From assembly GCF_000269805.1 (NCBI RefSeq), contig NZ_JH711483.1, positions 79,531 through 143,530 on the forward strand: DNA of 64,000 nucleotides, read 5' to 3'. The stretch comes from Actinomyces massiliensis 4401292. Its GTDB lineage: Bacteria; Actinomycetota; Actinomycetes; Actinomycetales; Actinomycetaceae. This document shows, one piece after another, positions 20,206 to 58,295 of this stretch; the stretch's first letter is position 1, and each line of letters begins with the position of its first letter. Below the pieces are notes generated by a model. That model had not been told where the DNA came from. It searched no databases and saw nothing but the letters and a program-made list of their open reading frames with translations. Both the position numbers and the translations under genes were made by a program.

Positions 20206-20280
20206 GCGGCTCCCTCGTCGAGATCGGTCGTACTCCGGCTCGAGATCGGTTCACTTCCGCACCGAGATCGGTCCGACGCA
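20206..20280 (+). repeat. GAGATCGGT 22-bp-phased array, left arm
   Basis: GAGATCGGT recurs at 20220, 20242 and 20264, exactly 22 bp apart, with related spacers. The whole stretch, starting at GCGGCTCC, is inverted at 20872-20946. Confidence 0.75.
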
Positions 20281-20871: not shown

Positions 20872-20946
20872 TTAGAACCGATTTCGAGCCGGAAGTGAAC
20901 CGATCTCGACGCGGAATACGACCGATCTCGACGAGGGGGGAGCCGC
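20872..20946 (-). repeat. GAGATCGGT 22-bp-phased array, right arm (inverted)
   Basis: ACCGATCTC or its one-base variant occurs at 20877, 20899 and 20921, again 22 bp apart and in inverted orientation, ending in AGCCGC. It is about 90% complementary to the left arm by eye. Confidence 0.75.
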
Positions 20947-51681: not shown

Positions 51682-52050
51682 ATGCTGACCATTGCTTCGC
51701 GTCTTGACGTCATGAACCGGCTCGGCCGGGCCATGGCCGACCCGACGCGCTCCCGCATCCTGATGTCCCTGCTCGACAGCCCGAGCCACCCCGCGGTGCT
51801 CTCGCGCGAGCTGGGGCTGACCCGCTCGAACGTGTCCAACCACCTGACCTGCCTGCGCGACTGCGGGATCGTGGTCGCCGAGCCCGAGGGCCGCCAGACT
51901 CGCTACGAGATCGCCGACCCGCACCTGGCCGCGGCGCTGACGGCACTGGTCGATGTGACCCTCGCCGTGGACGAGAGCGCGCCGTGCATCGACCCGGCCT
52001 GCTCGGTGCCGGGCTGCTGCGCCGCGAGCAGTTCGGGGGACGCCTCGTGA
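51682..52050 (+). CDS. cmtR: CmtR-like ArsR/SmtB metal-sensing repressor
   Basis: 122 residues. The winged helix-turn-helix includes PAVLSRELGLTRSNVSNHLTCLRDCGIVVAEPEGRQTRYEI. The cysteine pair in TCLRDC and the C-terminal cysteines (APCIDPACSVPGCC) match the Cd/Pb-binding ligands of mycobacterial CmtR. It should leave DNA when Cd2+ or Pb2+ binds, turning on the ATPase gene. It overlaps the ATPase start (GTGA). Confidence 0.88.
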   Translation: MLTIASRLDVMNRLGRAMADPTRSRILMSLLDSPSHPAVLSRELGLTRSNVSNHLTCLRDCGIVVAEPEGRQTRYEIADPHLAAALTALVDVTLAVDESAPCIDPACSVPGCCAASSSGDAS

Positions 52051-53951
52051 GCGCCGCCTGCGGCTGCGACGAGCCGACGACCAGCCCCGCGGACGAGGCA
52101 GAGGAGGCAGAGCGCCCGTGGTGGCGTGATCCCGGCCTGGTCGTGCCGATCCTCTCCGGCGTCGCGTTCGGCACCGGCCTGGCGCTGGAGTGGTCGGGGC
52201 TGCACATCGCGGCGCTGGTCGCGTTCTGGGCGGGCCTGCTGCTGGGCGCGTACACGTTCGTGCCCGGTGCGATCCGGAATCTCGTTGTGAAGCGCAAGCT
52301 CGGGATCGCGCTGCTGATGACGATCAGCGCCGTGGGCGCGGTGATCCTCGGCTACGTCGAGGAGGCGGCCGCGCTGGCGTTCCTCTACTCGATCGCCGAG
52401 GCCCTGGAGGACAAGGCGATGGACCGCGCCCGCGGCGGGCTGCGCGCGCTGCTGAAGCTCGTGCCGGAGACCGCGACCGTGCTGCGCGACGGGACCTCCG
52501 CCTCGGTCCCGGCCAGGGAGATCGCCGTCGGCGACGTGCTGCTGGTCCGCCCTGGCGAGCGGGTCGCGACCGATGGGCTGGTCCGCTCGGGCCGGTCGAG
52601 CCTGGACACTTCGGCGATCACCGGTGAATCGATCCCGGTCGAGGTCGCGCCCGGAGAAGCGGTGTCGGCGGGCGCGATCAACAGCGCCGGCGTGCTGGAG
52701 GTCGAGGCGACCGCCGCGGGCACCGACAACTCGCTGACCACGATCGTGGAGCTGGTAGAGCAGGCCCAGGCCGAGAAGGGCGACCGAGCCCGGATCGCTG
52801 ACCGGATCGCCCGCCCGCTGGTGCCCGGCGTGATGGTCCTCGCCGTCCTCGTCGGCGTGCTCGGGTCCCTGCTCGGCGACCCGGAGACCTGGATCACCCG
52901 CGCCCTGGTCGTCCTCGTCGCGGCCAGCCCCTGCGCGCTGGCGATCGCGGTGCCCGTCACCGTGGTCTCCGCGATCGGCGCGGCGACCAAGTTCGGCGTC
53001 GTCATCAAGAGCGGGGCCGCCTTCGAGCGCCTCGGCGGCATCCGGCACCTGGCCGTGGACAAGACCGGCACTCTGACCCGCAACCGGCCCGAGGTAACCG
53101 CCATCGTCGCCGCCCATGGGTTCGACGATGCGCAGGTGCTTGCTTGGGCTGCCGCCGTGGAGCAGCACTCGACGCACCCACTCGCCGCCGCCATCGCCGC
53201 CGCGGGCCGGGGAACCCCCGCCGCGCAGGACGTGGCCGAGGAGGCCGGGCACGGCATCGGTGGCCTGGTCGACGGCCGCAGGGTGGCGGTGGGCAGTCCG
53301 CGCTGGATCGACGCCGGTCCGCTCAAGGCCCGGGTCGAGGACCTGGAGGCCGAGGGGCAGACCTGCGTGCTCGTCACCGTCGACGGCTTCCTGGCCGGGG
53401 CGATCGGCGTCCGCGACGAGCTGCGCCCCGAGGTCCCCGAGGTCGTGCGGAGCCTGCGCGACCAGGGCGTCGAGGTGAGCATGCTCACCGGCGACAACTC
53501 CCGCACCGCTGCTGCGCTGGCGAAGCTGGCCGGGATCGGCGACGTGCACGCCGAGCTGCGTCCCGAGGACAAGGCTCGCATCGTCGCCGGGTTCTCGGAG
53601 ACGTCGCCGACCGCGATGATCGGCGACGGCATCAACGACGCGCCCGCCCTGGCCGGGGCGACCGTGGGCATCGCGATGGGCGCGACCGGCTCCGACGCCG
53701 CGATCGAGTCCGCCGACGTCGCCTTCACCGGCCACGACCTCGGCCTCATCCCGCAGGCTCTGCGCCACGCCCGCCGCGGCGGCAGGATCATCAACCAGAA
53801 CATCGTGCTGTCCTTGGCGATCATCACTGTGCTGCTGCCGCTGGCGATCACCGGCGTGCTCGGCCTGGCAGCGGTCGTCCTCGTGCACGAGGTCGCCGAA
53901 GTCGTCGTCATCGCCAACGGACTGCGGGCTGCGCGTGCCCGCAAGCAATAG
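52047..53951 (+). CDS. P1B-type heavy-metal-translocating ATPase (SPC type)
   Basis: 634 residues from GTG. A cysteine-containing N-terminus (SAACGCDEP) is followed by membrane helices, the actuator loop ITGESIPVEV, the ion-binding motif SPC in VVLVAASPCALAIAVPV (about 293), the phosphorylation motif DKTGTLT (about 337), and the hinge MIGDGINDAPALA. HEVAEVVVIANG ends the last helix. SPC plus HE(V/G) is the P1B-4 pattern, linked to Co, Cd or Zn export. With CmtR next to it, Cd/Pb efflux is the best guess. It ends 25 bp before attR. Confidence 0.92.
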   Translation: MSAACGCDEPTTSPADEAEEAERPWWRDPGLVVPILSGVAFGTGLALEWSGLHIAALVAFWAGLLLGAYTFVPGAIRNLVVKRKLGIALLMTISAVGAVILGYVEEAAALAFLYSIAEALEDKAMDRARGGLRALLKLVPETATVLRDGTSASVPAREIAVGDVLLVRPGERVATDGLVRSGRSSLDTSAITGESIPVEVAPGEAVSAGAINSAGVLEVEATAAGTDNSLTTIVELVEQAQAEKGDRARIADRIARPLVPGVMVLAVLVGVLGSLLGDPETWITRALVVLVAASPCALAIAVPVTVVSAIGAATKFGVVIKSGAAFERLGGIRHLAVDKTGTLTRNRPEVTAIVAAHGFDDAQVLAWAAAVEQHSTHPLAAAIAAAGRGTPAAQDVAEEAGHGIGGLVDGRRVAVGSPRWIDAGPLKARVEDLEAEGQTCVLVTVDGFLAGAIGVRDELRPEVPEVVRSLRDQGVEVSMLTGDNSRTAAALAKLAGIGDVHAELRPEDKARIVAGFSETSPTAMIGDGINDAPALAGATVGIAMGATGSDAAIESADVAFTGHDLGLIPQALRHARRGGRIINQNIVLSLAIITVLLPLAITGVLGLAAVVLVHEVAEVVVIANGLRAARARKQ

Positions 53952-53980: not shown

Positions 53981-54293
53981 TGCGCTACGAGAGCCCACTC
54001 CACCTGGCCGAGGAGATCGTCGCCCTGGACCTGCTCACCGACCGCGCATCGTCATCGGTATCTCCCGCGGCTCCCCGGAGCAGGCGATGCCGCCCAGATC
54101 GGAGCCGCCCCCGGAGGGGCGTCTCTCGCGGCTTCAGGCGGAGCAGATCCGTCGTTGTCGCGGGACCGGTGAGGAAGCCGGTCACGACTGGACCCCGCGG
54201 ATGAGCGTGTCCCGCTCGATCTTCCCGATCGTCTCCGAGACCGACCGCAGTCTCTTCAGCCTGCGTGGCGAGGACTCCCACGACTACATCGAC
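53977..54293 (+). pseudogene. LLM-class oxidoreductase, middle part
   Basis: It reads MRYESPLHLAEEIVALDLLT and, after a frameshift, IVIGISRGSPEQAM, then TPRMSVSRSIFPIVSETDRS and SHDYID. It continues the gene cut at 45336 and has lost a large internal part (residues normally between the GSPEQA loop and the C-terminal third). It stops at ATCGAC, where a second element is inserted. Confidence 0.75.
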
Positions 54294-54659
54294 GTTACCG
54301 GGTTCTTCGTGTGTGAGGGTGTGGTCGGGGTGGGCGGGTGCCAGTGGTTCGGTGTCTTGGAGTCCTGCGCGGTCGTACGCGGGGGCGTGTGGTCGTACCT
54401 GGCGTCGCGCGGTCGTACCTTGGAGGGGTTTTAAGGTACGACCGCGTGGAGTTGCGTACGACCGCACGGCTTCACGTACGACCGGGTGAGACTGCGTACG
54501 ACCACGTGGAGCCGGTGGCCCACGATGACGCATCCCCGGGGCGGGCGCAGACGCCCGCCCCGGGACCGTCGACCAGCGACCCCGACGGCCCCGGCGAGAA
54601 AAGCCTCGAACAACCGCATACATCCCACCCATCACGCCCCCGAACACGAAGAACCCGTT
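54294..54659. mobile_element. 366-bp non-coding element with 20-bp-phased inverted arrays
   Basis: Flanked by the direct repeat ATCGAC (54288-54293 and 54660-54665), with imperfect terminal inverted repeats around GGGTTCTTCGTGT. Removing it and one ATCGAC rejoins the host frame as SHDYIDGLHLTFRRTYAAEP. The interior carries seven GGTCGTAC cores in two opposed arrays and a GGGGCGGGCG hairpin at about 54538-54562. No protein is encoded. It is a MITE-like insertion. Confidence 0.75.
54371..54503. repeat. GGTCGTAC array, 20-bp period, inverted halves
   Basis: GGTCGTAC at 54371, 54391 and 54411, then its complement GTACGACC at 54436, 54456, 54476 and 54496. All spacings within each half are exactly 20 bp. 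The two inner units form a perfect 14-bp-arm hairpin (CGCGGTCGTACCTT). Confidence 0.85.
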
Positions 54660-54860
54660 ATCGACGGTCTGCACTTGACGTTCAGACGCACCTACGCCGC
54701 CGAGCCCGACACCCTCATGCTCGCCATCCCCGGCCAGCTCGGTGCCGACGACAACCTGTATGCCCTGCAGGCCTTCGCCGAGCACGGCGTACCGGCGCTC
54801 GGCTGGCGGCCCAACACAGAGGGACCGGTGACGGGATACGCGTTGGACGACGGGGGCTGA
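54660..54860 (+). pseudogene. LLM-class oxidoreductase, C-terminal part
   Basis: It reads IDGLHLTFRRTYAAEPDTLM, LAIPGQLGADDNLYALQAF and PALGWRPNTEG before a TGA. This is the usual C-terminus of LLM-class oxidoreductases (LMLTIPNQLGVDYN... APALGWR). Together with 45086-45336 and 53977-54293 it makes up one broken gene carrying two insertions. Confidence 0.75.
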
Positions 54861-56188: not shown

Positions 56189-58180
56189 CTAGGCGAGCCC
56201 CATGGCCAGGGCGGTACCGGCCCTGAGCCAGGCGCGCCGCGTGGACAGGGCCAGCGAGTCGAGGATCAGGGGTCGTCCGGCCATGGCGGGGTCGTAGGGG
56301 ATGCCGACGGCGGCGCGGGTGATCCCCTGGAATGTGGAGACCAGCTGGGTGGGGGCGGGCTCCGCCTTGGAACCCTGGGAGACGACCACGAGGGCGTTCT
56401 CGGCCAGGCGCGCGGCGTGTGAGTCGGCGCCGGCGAGCTCGGCCAGGAGGAGGCGCGCGGACTCGGCATGGTCGGGCCGCGTCGTCGTGGGCACGACGAT
56501 GGCGTCCGCCCGGGCGATCATGGCGCGCCACTGGGGGCTGGACTCGTCGTTGCCGGAGTCGATGACCACGAGGCGGTAGTACTTGGTCAGGACGGAGTGG
56601 ATGGCGTCGAAGCTGTCCGCGTCGCCGGGCTTCGCATCCGCGAGCACCTCGGGGCGGCTGCGCAGGACGTCGTAGCGGTCCTCGCGCTGATGGTGGACGA
56701 ACCCGGATATCTCGGCGGCCTGCGCCTGCGGGGACAGGAGGTGGTTCACGTGCGGCAGCAGGTCGATGACCGTGGCGTCGTGCGGTCCCTGCTGGGTGCG
56801 CCACCCCAGCGTGCCGCGCGTCGAGTTGTTGTCGTAGGCGATGACGCCCGCCCCGCCGTAGCGCGCGAAGACGGCGGACAGGAGGATCGCCGTGGGCGTC
56901 TTGGTGGCCCCGCCCTTGCCGTTGACGACCGCGATGGTGCGCGGGCCCGCCCAGTGCTGGGAGACGGCGGCGGCATCGGCCCGCTCGGCGCGCTCACGCT
57001 CGGTGGGCCCCAGGTGCAGGCCGAACTGGTTCAGGGCGCCGCGCAGGCCGGTGGCCGCGGGCGCCTCGTTGGTGATCTCCGTGAGCAGCGACGTGGAGCG
57101 CGCCTGCTCGCGCGGGTCCGACGGCACATTCCCCGGAGAGGGCGGGGTGGACGCCGTCGGGGGCTGCTTGGGTGAAGGCGAGTACGGCGTGGCCAGCGCC
57201 GCCGGTGAGAGGGCCGACGTCGCCTGCTGGGTGGCCGCTGGTGAGGCCAGCGCTGCTGTCGGGGGAGGCGCTCCGTCTGACGGGGAGTACGGCGTGTCCA
57301 GCATCGCGTGCGATGCCCCGGGTGCGTCGGGCGCTGCTGTCTGTGCTGCCTGCCCTGCCTGTGCCGCCGGCCTTGTTGGTGATGCCGGCGATGCTGGTGA
57401 CGCCGGTGATGGTGGTGATGTCGGTGCCGATGGTGCTTCGGCCGCTGCTGCCGACGACGCCGAGCGCGGCGCGATCAGTGAGGAACGCCGTACTTGCGGT
57501 GCGGCTGGTGCTGGTGCTGGAGCCGATGCCGATGGTGCTGAGCGCGGTGCGGCTGATGAGGCGTACGGCGGAGCCGGGGCTGCGGGCGATGCTGCTGAGG
57601 CGGGCGATGGTGCCGGCGCCGGCTCTGCGCGATGCCTCCGCGGTGCGGTGCGGCCCTCGGCGGCGTCGGTCCGGGGCAGAAGGCCCGGTGGCAGTCGGAT
57701 GCCGGCGGTCTGGGGGGTATCGGAGTCCGGGGCGGGCGCGGTTCGCTGCCGACGGCGGGTCTGAGGCAGGGGTGCGGAGCGCGTCGGCTGAGTCGGCTCA
57801 GCCGGCTGAGTTGGCTGAGTCGGTACAGATGGCCTGGTCCGCGTGCGGGGCGTTGCAGTGCCGCGAGTCGTGCCCGGCCTGCTCAGCCTGCTCGCTCTAC
57901 TCGGTGTGCTCGGTGTGCTCGGCGTCAGGGCGCCCTCGGTGATGATGGTGCCGTCCGGGTAAACGGCTATGCGCCAGCTTCCCGCGGGCTCGGTGATGGT
58001 GGTCGAGATCGGGTGCCCGAGTGCTCGGGCGCGGTGCGACAGGTGGGTGACGACCGCGGCGCGGGCCTCTTTCGGAGTCGATTTGCTCAAGTCCGCCTCG
58101 ACGCCTTCGAAAATGACGTGCGCGTGGCCCTCGGCGCTCAGCAGGACCTCAGCCTGAGGCCATTCTGTTGCGGTGCTCAT
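56189..58180 (-). CDS. ParA/MinD-like ATPase with disordered linker
   Basis: 663 residues from the ATG at 58180. An N-terminal ~85-residue domain (EVLLSAEGHAHVIFEGVEAD onward) is followed by ~300 residues of Pro/Ala/Ser/Thr-rich sequence, then a MinD/ParA-type ATPase: deviant Walker A VVNGKGGATKTPTAILL, VIAYDNNSTRGTLGW, LVVIDSGNDESSPQW (Walker B), and VVPTTTRPDHAESARLL. This resembles the large MinD-like ATPases of actinobacteria, some of them linked to type VII secretion or partitioning. No partner gene is here. A 9-bp repeat array lies upstream. Confidence 0.8.
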   Translation of the reverse strand: MSTATEWPQAEVLLSAEGHAHVIFEGVEADLSKSTPKEARAAVVTHLSHRARALGHPISTTITEPAGSWRIAVYPDGTIITEGALTPSTPSTPSRASRLSRPGTTRGTATPRTRTRPSVPTQPTQPAEPTQPTRSAPLPQTRRRQRTAPAPDSDTPQTAGIRLPPGLLPRTDAAEGRTAPRRHRAEPAPAPSPASAASPAAPAPPYASSAAPRSAPSASAPAPAPAAPQVRRSSLIAPRSASSAAAAEAPSAPTSPPSPASPASPASPTRPAAQAGQAAQTAAPDAPGASHAMLDTPYSPSDGAPPPTAALASPAATQQATSALSPAALATPYSPSPKQPPTASTPPSPGNVPSDPREQARSTSLLTEITNEAPAATGLRGALNQFGLHLGPTERERAERADAAAVSQHWAGPRTIAVVNGKGGATKTPTAILLSAVFARYGGAGVIAYDNNSTRGTLGWRTQQGPHDATVIDLLPHVNHLLSPQAQAAEISGFVHHQREDRYDVLRSRPEVLADAKPGDADSFDAIHSVLTKYYRLVVIDSGNDESSPQWRAMIARADAIVVPTTTRPDHAESARLLLAELAGADSHAARLAENALVVVSQGSKAEPAPTQLVSTFQGITRAAVGIPYDPAMAGRPLILDSLALSTRRAWLRAGTALAMGLA

Positions 58181-58241
58181 GTGCGTGTCCTTCGTGGCGA
58201 GCGCTACCGGTGAGCGCGTGATGTAGATGGGCGATGGGCTC

Positions 58242-58295
58242 AAATGGTCCCAATGGGCCAAATGGTCAAAATGGTCCAAATGGGCTCAGTGGCAC
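58242..58295. repeat. Six 9-bp tandem repeats upstream of the ParA-like gene
   Basis: AAATGGTCC, CAATGGGCC, AAATGGTCA, AAATGGTCC, AAATGGGCT and CAGTGGCAC follow in phase, 62 bp before the ParA-like start. One or two weaker units may precede them. It could be an operator or centromere-like site for the ATPase, or a simple repeat. Confidence 0.65.

Follow-up and report, generated by a model that had tools for sequence, protein, structure and literature searches.

A strictly phased, two-armed array of a 20-bp unit was found in Actinomyces massiliensis 4401292 inside a 355-bp element that is, to near certainty, a non-autonomous transposon (MITE) of the ISL3 family; arrays of the same kind recur in other wrappers and in apparently bare settings elsewhere in the genus, and in one related species, G009, which has about fifty of them, they lie outside predicted genes and are unevenly distributed toward dnaA. 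The array is tentatively read here, with a confidence close to but still short of even, as a mobile phased DNA-binding platform, spread in the ISL3-family MITE, whose opposed half-arrays would be read as double-stranded DNA. The window, that is, the whole stretch of 64,000 nucleotides analysed, is described first, and the features of the locus are collected in Table 1.

Table 1. Features of the interrupted gene, the inserted element and its array (window coordinates).
Feature	Position	Strand	Basis
Left part of luciferase-like (LLM-class) oxidoreductase pseudogene	54201..54292	+	Homologs; frame picks up again past the insertion
Target-site duplication, left copy CGTTACCG	54293..54300	+	G009 ortholog L094 reads CGTTATCG here
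Non-autonomous ISL3-family element (MITE), 355 bp, no gene recognised inside	54301..54655	+	Terminal repeats and 8-bp duplication resemble those of Actinomyces ISL3 elements
Left terminal inverted repeat GGTTCTTCGTGT, similarity continuing as GTGAGGGTGTGGTC	54301..54312	+	ISL3 ends read GGCTCTTCGTGTTTGAGGGTGTGGTAGGTG
Forward half-array, GGTCGTAC x3	54371..54418	+	Pattern search and shuffles
17-nt centre CTTGGAGGGGTTTTAAG, diverged form of the dyad CTTAGAG-NNN-CTCTAAG	54419..54435	.	Comparison with other array centres
Inverted half-array, GTACGACC x4	54436..54503	-	Pattern search and shuffles
Right terminal inverted repeat ACACGAAGAACC	54644..54655	-	End comparison
Target-site duplication, right copy CGTTATCG	54656..54663	+	Empty-site reconstruction
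C-terminal part of LLM-class oxidoreductase pseudogene	54664..54860	+	48 related loci

The forward cores start at 54371, 54391 and 54411 and the inverted ones at 54436, 54456, 54476 and 54496, the step being exactly 20 bp in both arms, with 17 nt between them; the array of three forward and four inverted 20-bp units that had been proposed from the letters alone is thus present at all seven positions. The paired pattern GGTCGTAC-N12-GGTCGTAC has five matches on the two strands of the window, all of them within the array, and none in 100 dinucleotide shuffles. The proposal that the element is non-coding holds as far as tested: none of the six ORFs of at least 60 aa overlapping it has a product with a Pfam match above the cut-off (the sole weak match scores 16 bits against 26.7), while the remnant gene's own ORF extends into the element. 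At 54535-54564 the element also contains a perfect 13-bp inverted repeat (CCCGGGGCGGGCG/CGCCCGCCCCGGG), absent from the aligned ortholog in a second Actinomyces genome, G009.

The interrupted gene, whose A. johnsonii homolog matches PF00296 (luciferase-like monooxygenase), is a pseudogene; by inspection against a 355-aa homolog (L158), its 5' part is gone and its middle is deleted or frameshifted. Insertion into a gene, as originally predicted, is supported, and the frame resumes after the element; the boundaries, on the other hand, had been placed at 54294-54659 (366 bp) with a 6-bp duplication of ATCGAC, and have to be redrawn to 355 bp (54301-54655) with the 8-bp duplication CGTTACCG/CGTTATCG. 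ATCGAC does flank the element, at 54288-54293 and 54660-54665, but as an accident of the target, ATCGACGTTATCGAC, in which it was already present twice. The 6-bp duplication was rejected since the corresponding empty site is three residues short of intact luciferase-like oxidoreductases, whereas the 8-bp version gives RGEDSHDYIDVIDGLHLTFRRTYAAEPD, gap-free and equal in length to the A. johnsonii RGEDSHDQIGIIDGLQSTFGRTYAAEPD, and since the G009 ortholog has CGTTATCG at the left end. In this orthologous place (L094; flank identity 95% over 1320 bp) the same insertion is found, with CGTTATCG directly before the left end and a right end that is unrecognisable by now; the single mismatch in the window's duplication therefore probably arose afterwards, in the left copy, and the best explanation is that the insertion into the oxidoreductase gene predates the split of the window species from G009. 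As for the neighbourhood (genes named by eye), genes for an ArsR-type regulator and, after it, a metal-transporting P-type ATPase are located upstream of the pseudogene (51682-53951), and the minus-strand gene at 56189-58279 encodes a ParA/MinD-like ATPase whose long N-terminal part is rich in proline and alanine.

The outer element starts with GGTTCTTCGTGTGTGAGGGTGTGGTC, which resembles the GGCTCTTCGTGTTTGAGGGTGTGGTAGGTG of transposase-bearing ISL3 loci (L212, L222 and others); with these ends, a duplication matching at 7/8 positions and the absence of a transposase of its own, its identity as an ISL3-family MITE is close to certain. PF01610 (ISL3 transposase) has matches in 32 of 49 Actinomyces genomes, five of them in the window's own genome (G000). 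Both ends of the GGCTCTTCGTGTTTGAGGGTGTGGTAGGTG kind were recognised in 11 of the 30 PF01610 loci fetched, and an 8-bp duplication, with the printed flanks read by eye, in six of these eleven (e.g., CGTTTACC, ATGATACG, CAGAAAGC; one of the six matches at 7/8); locus L217, in the window's own genome, has both ISL3-type ends but no matching duplication, and its PF01610 match is split in two pieces. Transposase-bearing relatives with ends of this kind, which had been proposed as a check, do exist. An ISL3 transposon with an 8-bp duplication is described in PMC9782665. The window element is like ISL3-family MITEs in its ends, its 8-bp duplication, its lack of a gene and its several copies; it differs from them in carrying the phased array, which is also present outside ISL3 ends.

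A search for further copies in the genus, as the original prediction had advised, was successful: the element has DNA matches in 24 of the 49 Actinomyces genomes, many of them to the ends only. The paired-core pattern is present in 14 of the 49 (243 matches in G009, 16 in G000; none for the reversed, uncomplemented control) and, among 396 genomes of the phylum, in two, the window's own and one other with a single match, the reversed control giving three matches in one genome. A pattern of forward core, centre and reverse core (gap 0-30) is found in 13 of the 49 genomes; G009 has 45 such places, 41 of which are listed, all with a 17-nt gap. The reversed control of this second pattern also matches in four of the 49 genomes (G000, three against two true matches; G048, two; G027 and G034, one each), and outside G009 the matches are not always array-like (G027). 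A second form of the array, with a centre mostly of about 27-29 nt, occurs in G019, G020, G021, G035 and G045, some copies in the last two lying near TGTTGCGAAA-like repeats (by eye); a third is built on a GAGGTCGTATTCGG-like core and has ISL3-like ends on either side in L064 of G041 and, in a less clear form, in L040 of G010. By eye, the 20-bp phased units of these two loci are mostly in a single orientation around another hairpin, which in L064 reads GAAACCCTCC...GGGAGGGTTT. Plasmids gave no match, and ten stretches from IMG/VR (five for each of two patterns), read by eye, are isolated matches without an array. The original prediction knew of no named element with this plan: for the outer element, an ISL3-type MITE, a name exists, while the arrays themselves are undescribed among the matches listed in the literature searched (Actinomyces repeats, MITE/ISL3, intergenic and palindromic repeats, nucleoid, and the letters GGTCGTAC).

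The array places examined were 46 in G009 (one a two-unit piece) and four in G000. None of the 46 in G009 lies within a gene predicted by an in-house codon model, for which these loci also served as training set, and the genes flanking the arrays (11 convergent, 8 divergent and 22 co-directional pairs, n = 41) show no orientation preference, so that a promoter or terminator role is not indicated. The consensus of the unit is CGCGC-GGTCGTAC-CY-nnnnn (20 bp), each arm holding one to eight forward or one to nine reverse units, mostly three to five, about a dyad near CTTAGAG NNN CTCTAAG. The step between units is exactly 20 bp in 277 of 302 cases and 21 bp in 18; in 275 units of G009, positions 0-7 carry 1.68-1.94 bits and the five free spacer positions 0.06-0.27. 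When the two central cores are set aside, the core is perfect in 261 of the remaining 302 units, with a single change in 35 and two changes in six, and 97 of 102 central cores are perfect; since the arrays were detected by exact cores and units accepted with at most two changes, this conservation is in part ascertained.

Arrays were encountered within ISL3 MITEs, within elements bounded by other repeats, and with no apparent wrapper; when 49 of the 51 arrays were scored, ISL3-MITE flanks were clear in 15, weak in 10 and not recognisable in 24, with 9/784, 18/496 and 20/1088 outer core bases changed in the three classes, respectively. The arrays of L005, L106 and L115 are enclosed in elements whose borders are opposed 22-bp repeats, CGAG[AT]TCGGT-N12; in the last two, a long hairpin (CATTTCGGCGCGAGTCCGAC...GTCGGACTCGCGCCGAAATG or close to it) stands beside the array (by eye). 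The suggestion that the array is not just a matter of transposon ends is hence borne out by its recurrence in other wrappers and in apparently bare places. The bare arrays may be old MITEs with decayed ends: in the orthologous pair L131 and L006 a faint MITE end is still visible. When inverted ends were sought around 48 of the 50 array places, most scores were no higher than the best of ten shuffles, and when the empty sites of bare arrays were sought in G000 for sixteen loci, the flanks were near each other for five, the intergenic DNA being unalignable.

A structured RNA, the other option named in the original prediction, is considered improbable; as worked out here, a transcript hairpin would end, stabilise or regulate neighbouring transcripts, or bind a protein. 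The window copy, if transcribed, would fold strongly (-99.3 kcal/mol, z = -9.0 against shuffles), and in its centre G-U pairs preserve pairing on the plus strand. Complementary cores favour a strong fold by themselves; by contrast, spacers on opposite arms agree less often than after permutation (0.334 against 0.432, sd 0.020; 49 arrays, 98 spacer pairs), also when G-U pairs are allowed on the better strand (0.546 against 0.606, sd 0.017; 49 arrays), a result read only as lack of complementarity, as the permutation mixes element types. Across 40 centres no covariation was detected, pairing being 0.711 against 0.714 with shuffled halves; base pairs kept by compensatory change were not found. 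Wobble changes in the centre point neither way, as they are one-sided in seven of the 13 centres with at least two G-U/A-C changes. These pairing tests cover the arrays other than two at contig ends (L097 at 20, and L102) and identical ones. No terminator- or promoter-like site of simple consensus was seen, the window has no Rfam match at the gathering score, and the indifference to the orientation of neighbouring genes likewise counts against an RNA. Each core is thus conserved whereas complementarity between the arms is not, as would be expected of sites that are read one by one in double-stranded DNA.

The protein-binding platform suggested by the original prediction remains the best functional reading, by virtue of core conservation and phasing. 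A binder was sought in one family, ParB_N, which is single-copy in G000 and G009, so that the ParB paralogue expected for a Noc-type system was not found. In the working that we propose, the payload of the MITE would be a modular array of 20-bp units, in two opposed half-arrays around the dyad centre; a putative sequence-specific protein would bind the 8-bp core of each unit on double-stranded DNA, the fixed step of about two helical turns would place the bound molecules on one face, and two opposed rows of protein would meet at the centre. In the array-rich species the arrays might then mark or organise the origin-proximal chromosome, in the manner of SlmA or Noc sites. We infer the binding protein, its cooperative binding, the selection by the host and the chromosome-level role alike, and an Actinomyces chromosome-marking system proper, in which a putative protein would act on MITE-spread arrays kept origin-proximally, possibly for nucleoid occlusion or domain organisation, is a bolder reading and appears unlikely.

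The array may alternatively be viewed as the selfish modular interior of a MITE, comparable to the modules of pneumococcal BOX elements, with units gained and lost by recombination and copies spread by the ISL3 transposase, the cores seeming conserved because the copies are recent or were selected by exact match; this account is a serious possibility, although we hold it to be less than probable. The clear MITE wrapper and the transposase-bearing relatives speak for it, as do changes in the number of whole units between orthologous copies: at a locus shared by seven genomes (L012-L018), where the element copy is flanked by TGTTTTGA/CGTTTTGA, L018 is short by one 20-bp unit and L017 by 41 bp, a whole-unit variation like that of BOX, and the array at G000:C1:496212 has lost the reverse arm that its G009 ortholog keeps (pair L006, L131). 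Only four arrays were found in the window's own genome, of which at least two are decayed, so that whatever role they have is dispensable there, and this genome seems to be losing them. The patchy distribution within the genus can be cited in favour of selfish DNA, but fits a host function equally well. Against a selfish interior, the free spacers of different arrays are near random while the cores are nearly invariant; 1068 of 1088 outer core bases are intact in the 24 of 49 arrays without a recognisable MITE flank; similar arrays occur in other wrappers; and the few ISL3 transposase matches of G009 (on contigs C8, C3, C2 and C7) are not clustered like the arrays. It is very improbable that the MITE, in order to move, needs the arrays as extra sites for the ISL3 transposase or some other protein of transposition: they do occur inside ISL3-ended elements, and the related array in L064 (less cleanly, that in L040) lies between ISL3-like ends, but none of the 30 loci with ISL3 transposase matches holds the paired-core or centre pattern, the arrays sit mid-element, away from the ends, and they are also found in elements with unrelated or unrecognisable ends.

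The position of the arrays on the chromosome was followed mainly in G009, with dnaA at G009:C3:165143 and, at G009:C7:51248, what we take to be a dif-like site. Thirty-four pieces of its contigs were compared with G000 and with G020, a complete genome, to place them. Contigs C3, C5, C9, C10, C13 and C16 fall no more than about 0.51 Mb from dnaA on the G000 map (C10 and C13 by G000 alone; G020 gives secondary weak matches for C9, C10, C13 and C16), while pieces of C2, C4, C7 and C12 and C6:50k map farther off or to other G000 contigs, and C1:50k, C6:220k, C8 (two pieces), C14 and C15 are unplaced. These six dnaA-side contigs, 31% of 3.34 Mb, hold 33 of the 41 listed centres (binomial 1e-10, the contigs having been chosen after the counts were seen); adding C17, also near dnaA, gives p = 3e-10 with the same post hoc choice. 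The contig-end arrays C3:20, C3:321570 and C9:153405 have identical flanks and possibly represent one place counted twice.

A mismatch-tolerant scan of 200 kb of origin-side G009 DNA, mostly from contigs known to be array-rich, found 10 arrays, with seven of ten stretches positive; no array was seen in one C9 stretch or in the pair closest to dnaA (C3:140-160 kb and 180-200 kb). Nor did the scan find any in 160 kb of C7, the contig with the dif-like site, plus 40 kb of C2, shuffled and reversed controls giving 0. The origin-side sample has 69 intergenic gaps of more than 150 bp and the terminus-side sample 50. The 22-bp repeats, followed as a control family, gave no cluster on the terminus side against six on the origin side in the same scan, so that part of the origin effect may be general; on contigs C1-C4, where the list of the control family seems complete, hand counts place 8 of 12 arrays (p = 0.001) but 14 of 51 control places (p = 0.19) on the dnaA contig. 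Of the seven known array positions in G045 (the list omits one counted centre), five are at most 0.43 Mb from dnaA, and in G020 four of five are at most 0.52 Mb from it; the 12 positions pooled lean toward dnaA (KS p = 0.012, including G045:C1:137987 at 0.95 Mb from dnaA; p = 0.004 without it). Origin-side enrichment of the SlmA/Noc type is suggested at most: it is strong in G009, but for contigs picked post hoc, and weaker in G020 and G045.

Some features of the arrays are reminiscent of known systems. The BIMEs, or REP arrays, of enterobacteria are protein-binding, intergenic arrays of short opposed units, and the Actinomyces arrays resemble them in location and in the opposed orientations, but differ in the sequence of the unit and in the strict 20-bp step with a free spacer. 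BOX elements follow the plan boxA/boxB/boxC with a variable boxB. In PMC3049150, those of Streptococcus pneumoniae are argued to be parasitic from their distribution. Dispersal as small repeats nearly confined to a few related species and a variable number of internal modules are the shared traits. Unlike BOX, the Actinomyces modules keep a 20-bp phase and face each other across a centre; their cores hardly vary, and the arrays lean toward the origin side. SlmA and Noc sites are single palindromic sites and not phased arrays. They served as comparison system (PMC4117426, PMC4331003); the Actinomyces arrays have no link to a homolog of SlmA or of Noc. The array word may be the docking site of a DNA-binding protein; if so, the 20-bp unit would be a probe for an Actinomyces protein possibly organising the origin side, and the arrays would illustrate clearly how mobile elements can seed a system of sites across the chromosome. 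If they are only selfish cargo, they would still form an unusually regular MITE interior, common to elements with different ends.

The 22-bp units CGAG[AT]TCGGT-N12 constitute a second phased family, which in the window forms opposed groups between convergent genes (20219-20273, 20735 and 20899-20931); GGTCGTAC occurs within the same region at 20226 and 20378. Their paired pattern has 563 matches in the window's genome, 248 in G009 and none in G020 and G045. An apparent restriction of this family to the plus strand in G000 was discarded as, we think, an artefact of the list, in which minus-strand copies such as L005 are missing. Purine-rich tracts follow several of the ends of this family, as judged by eye.
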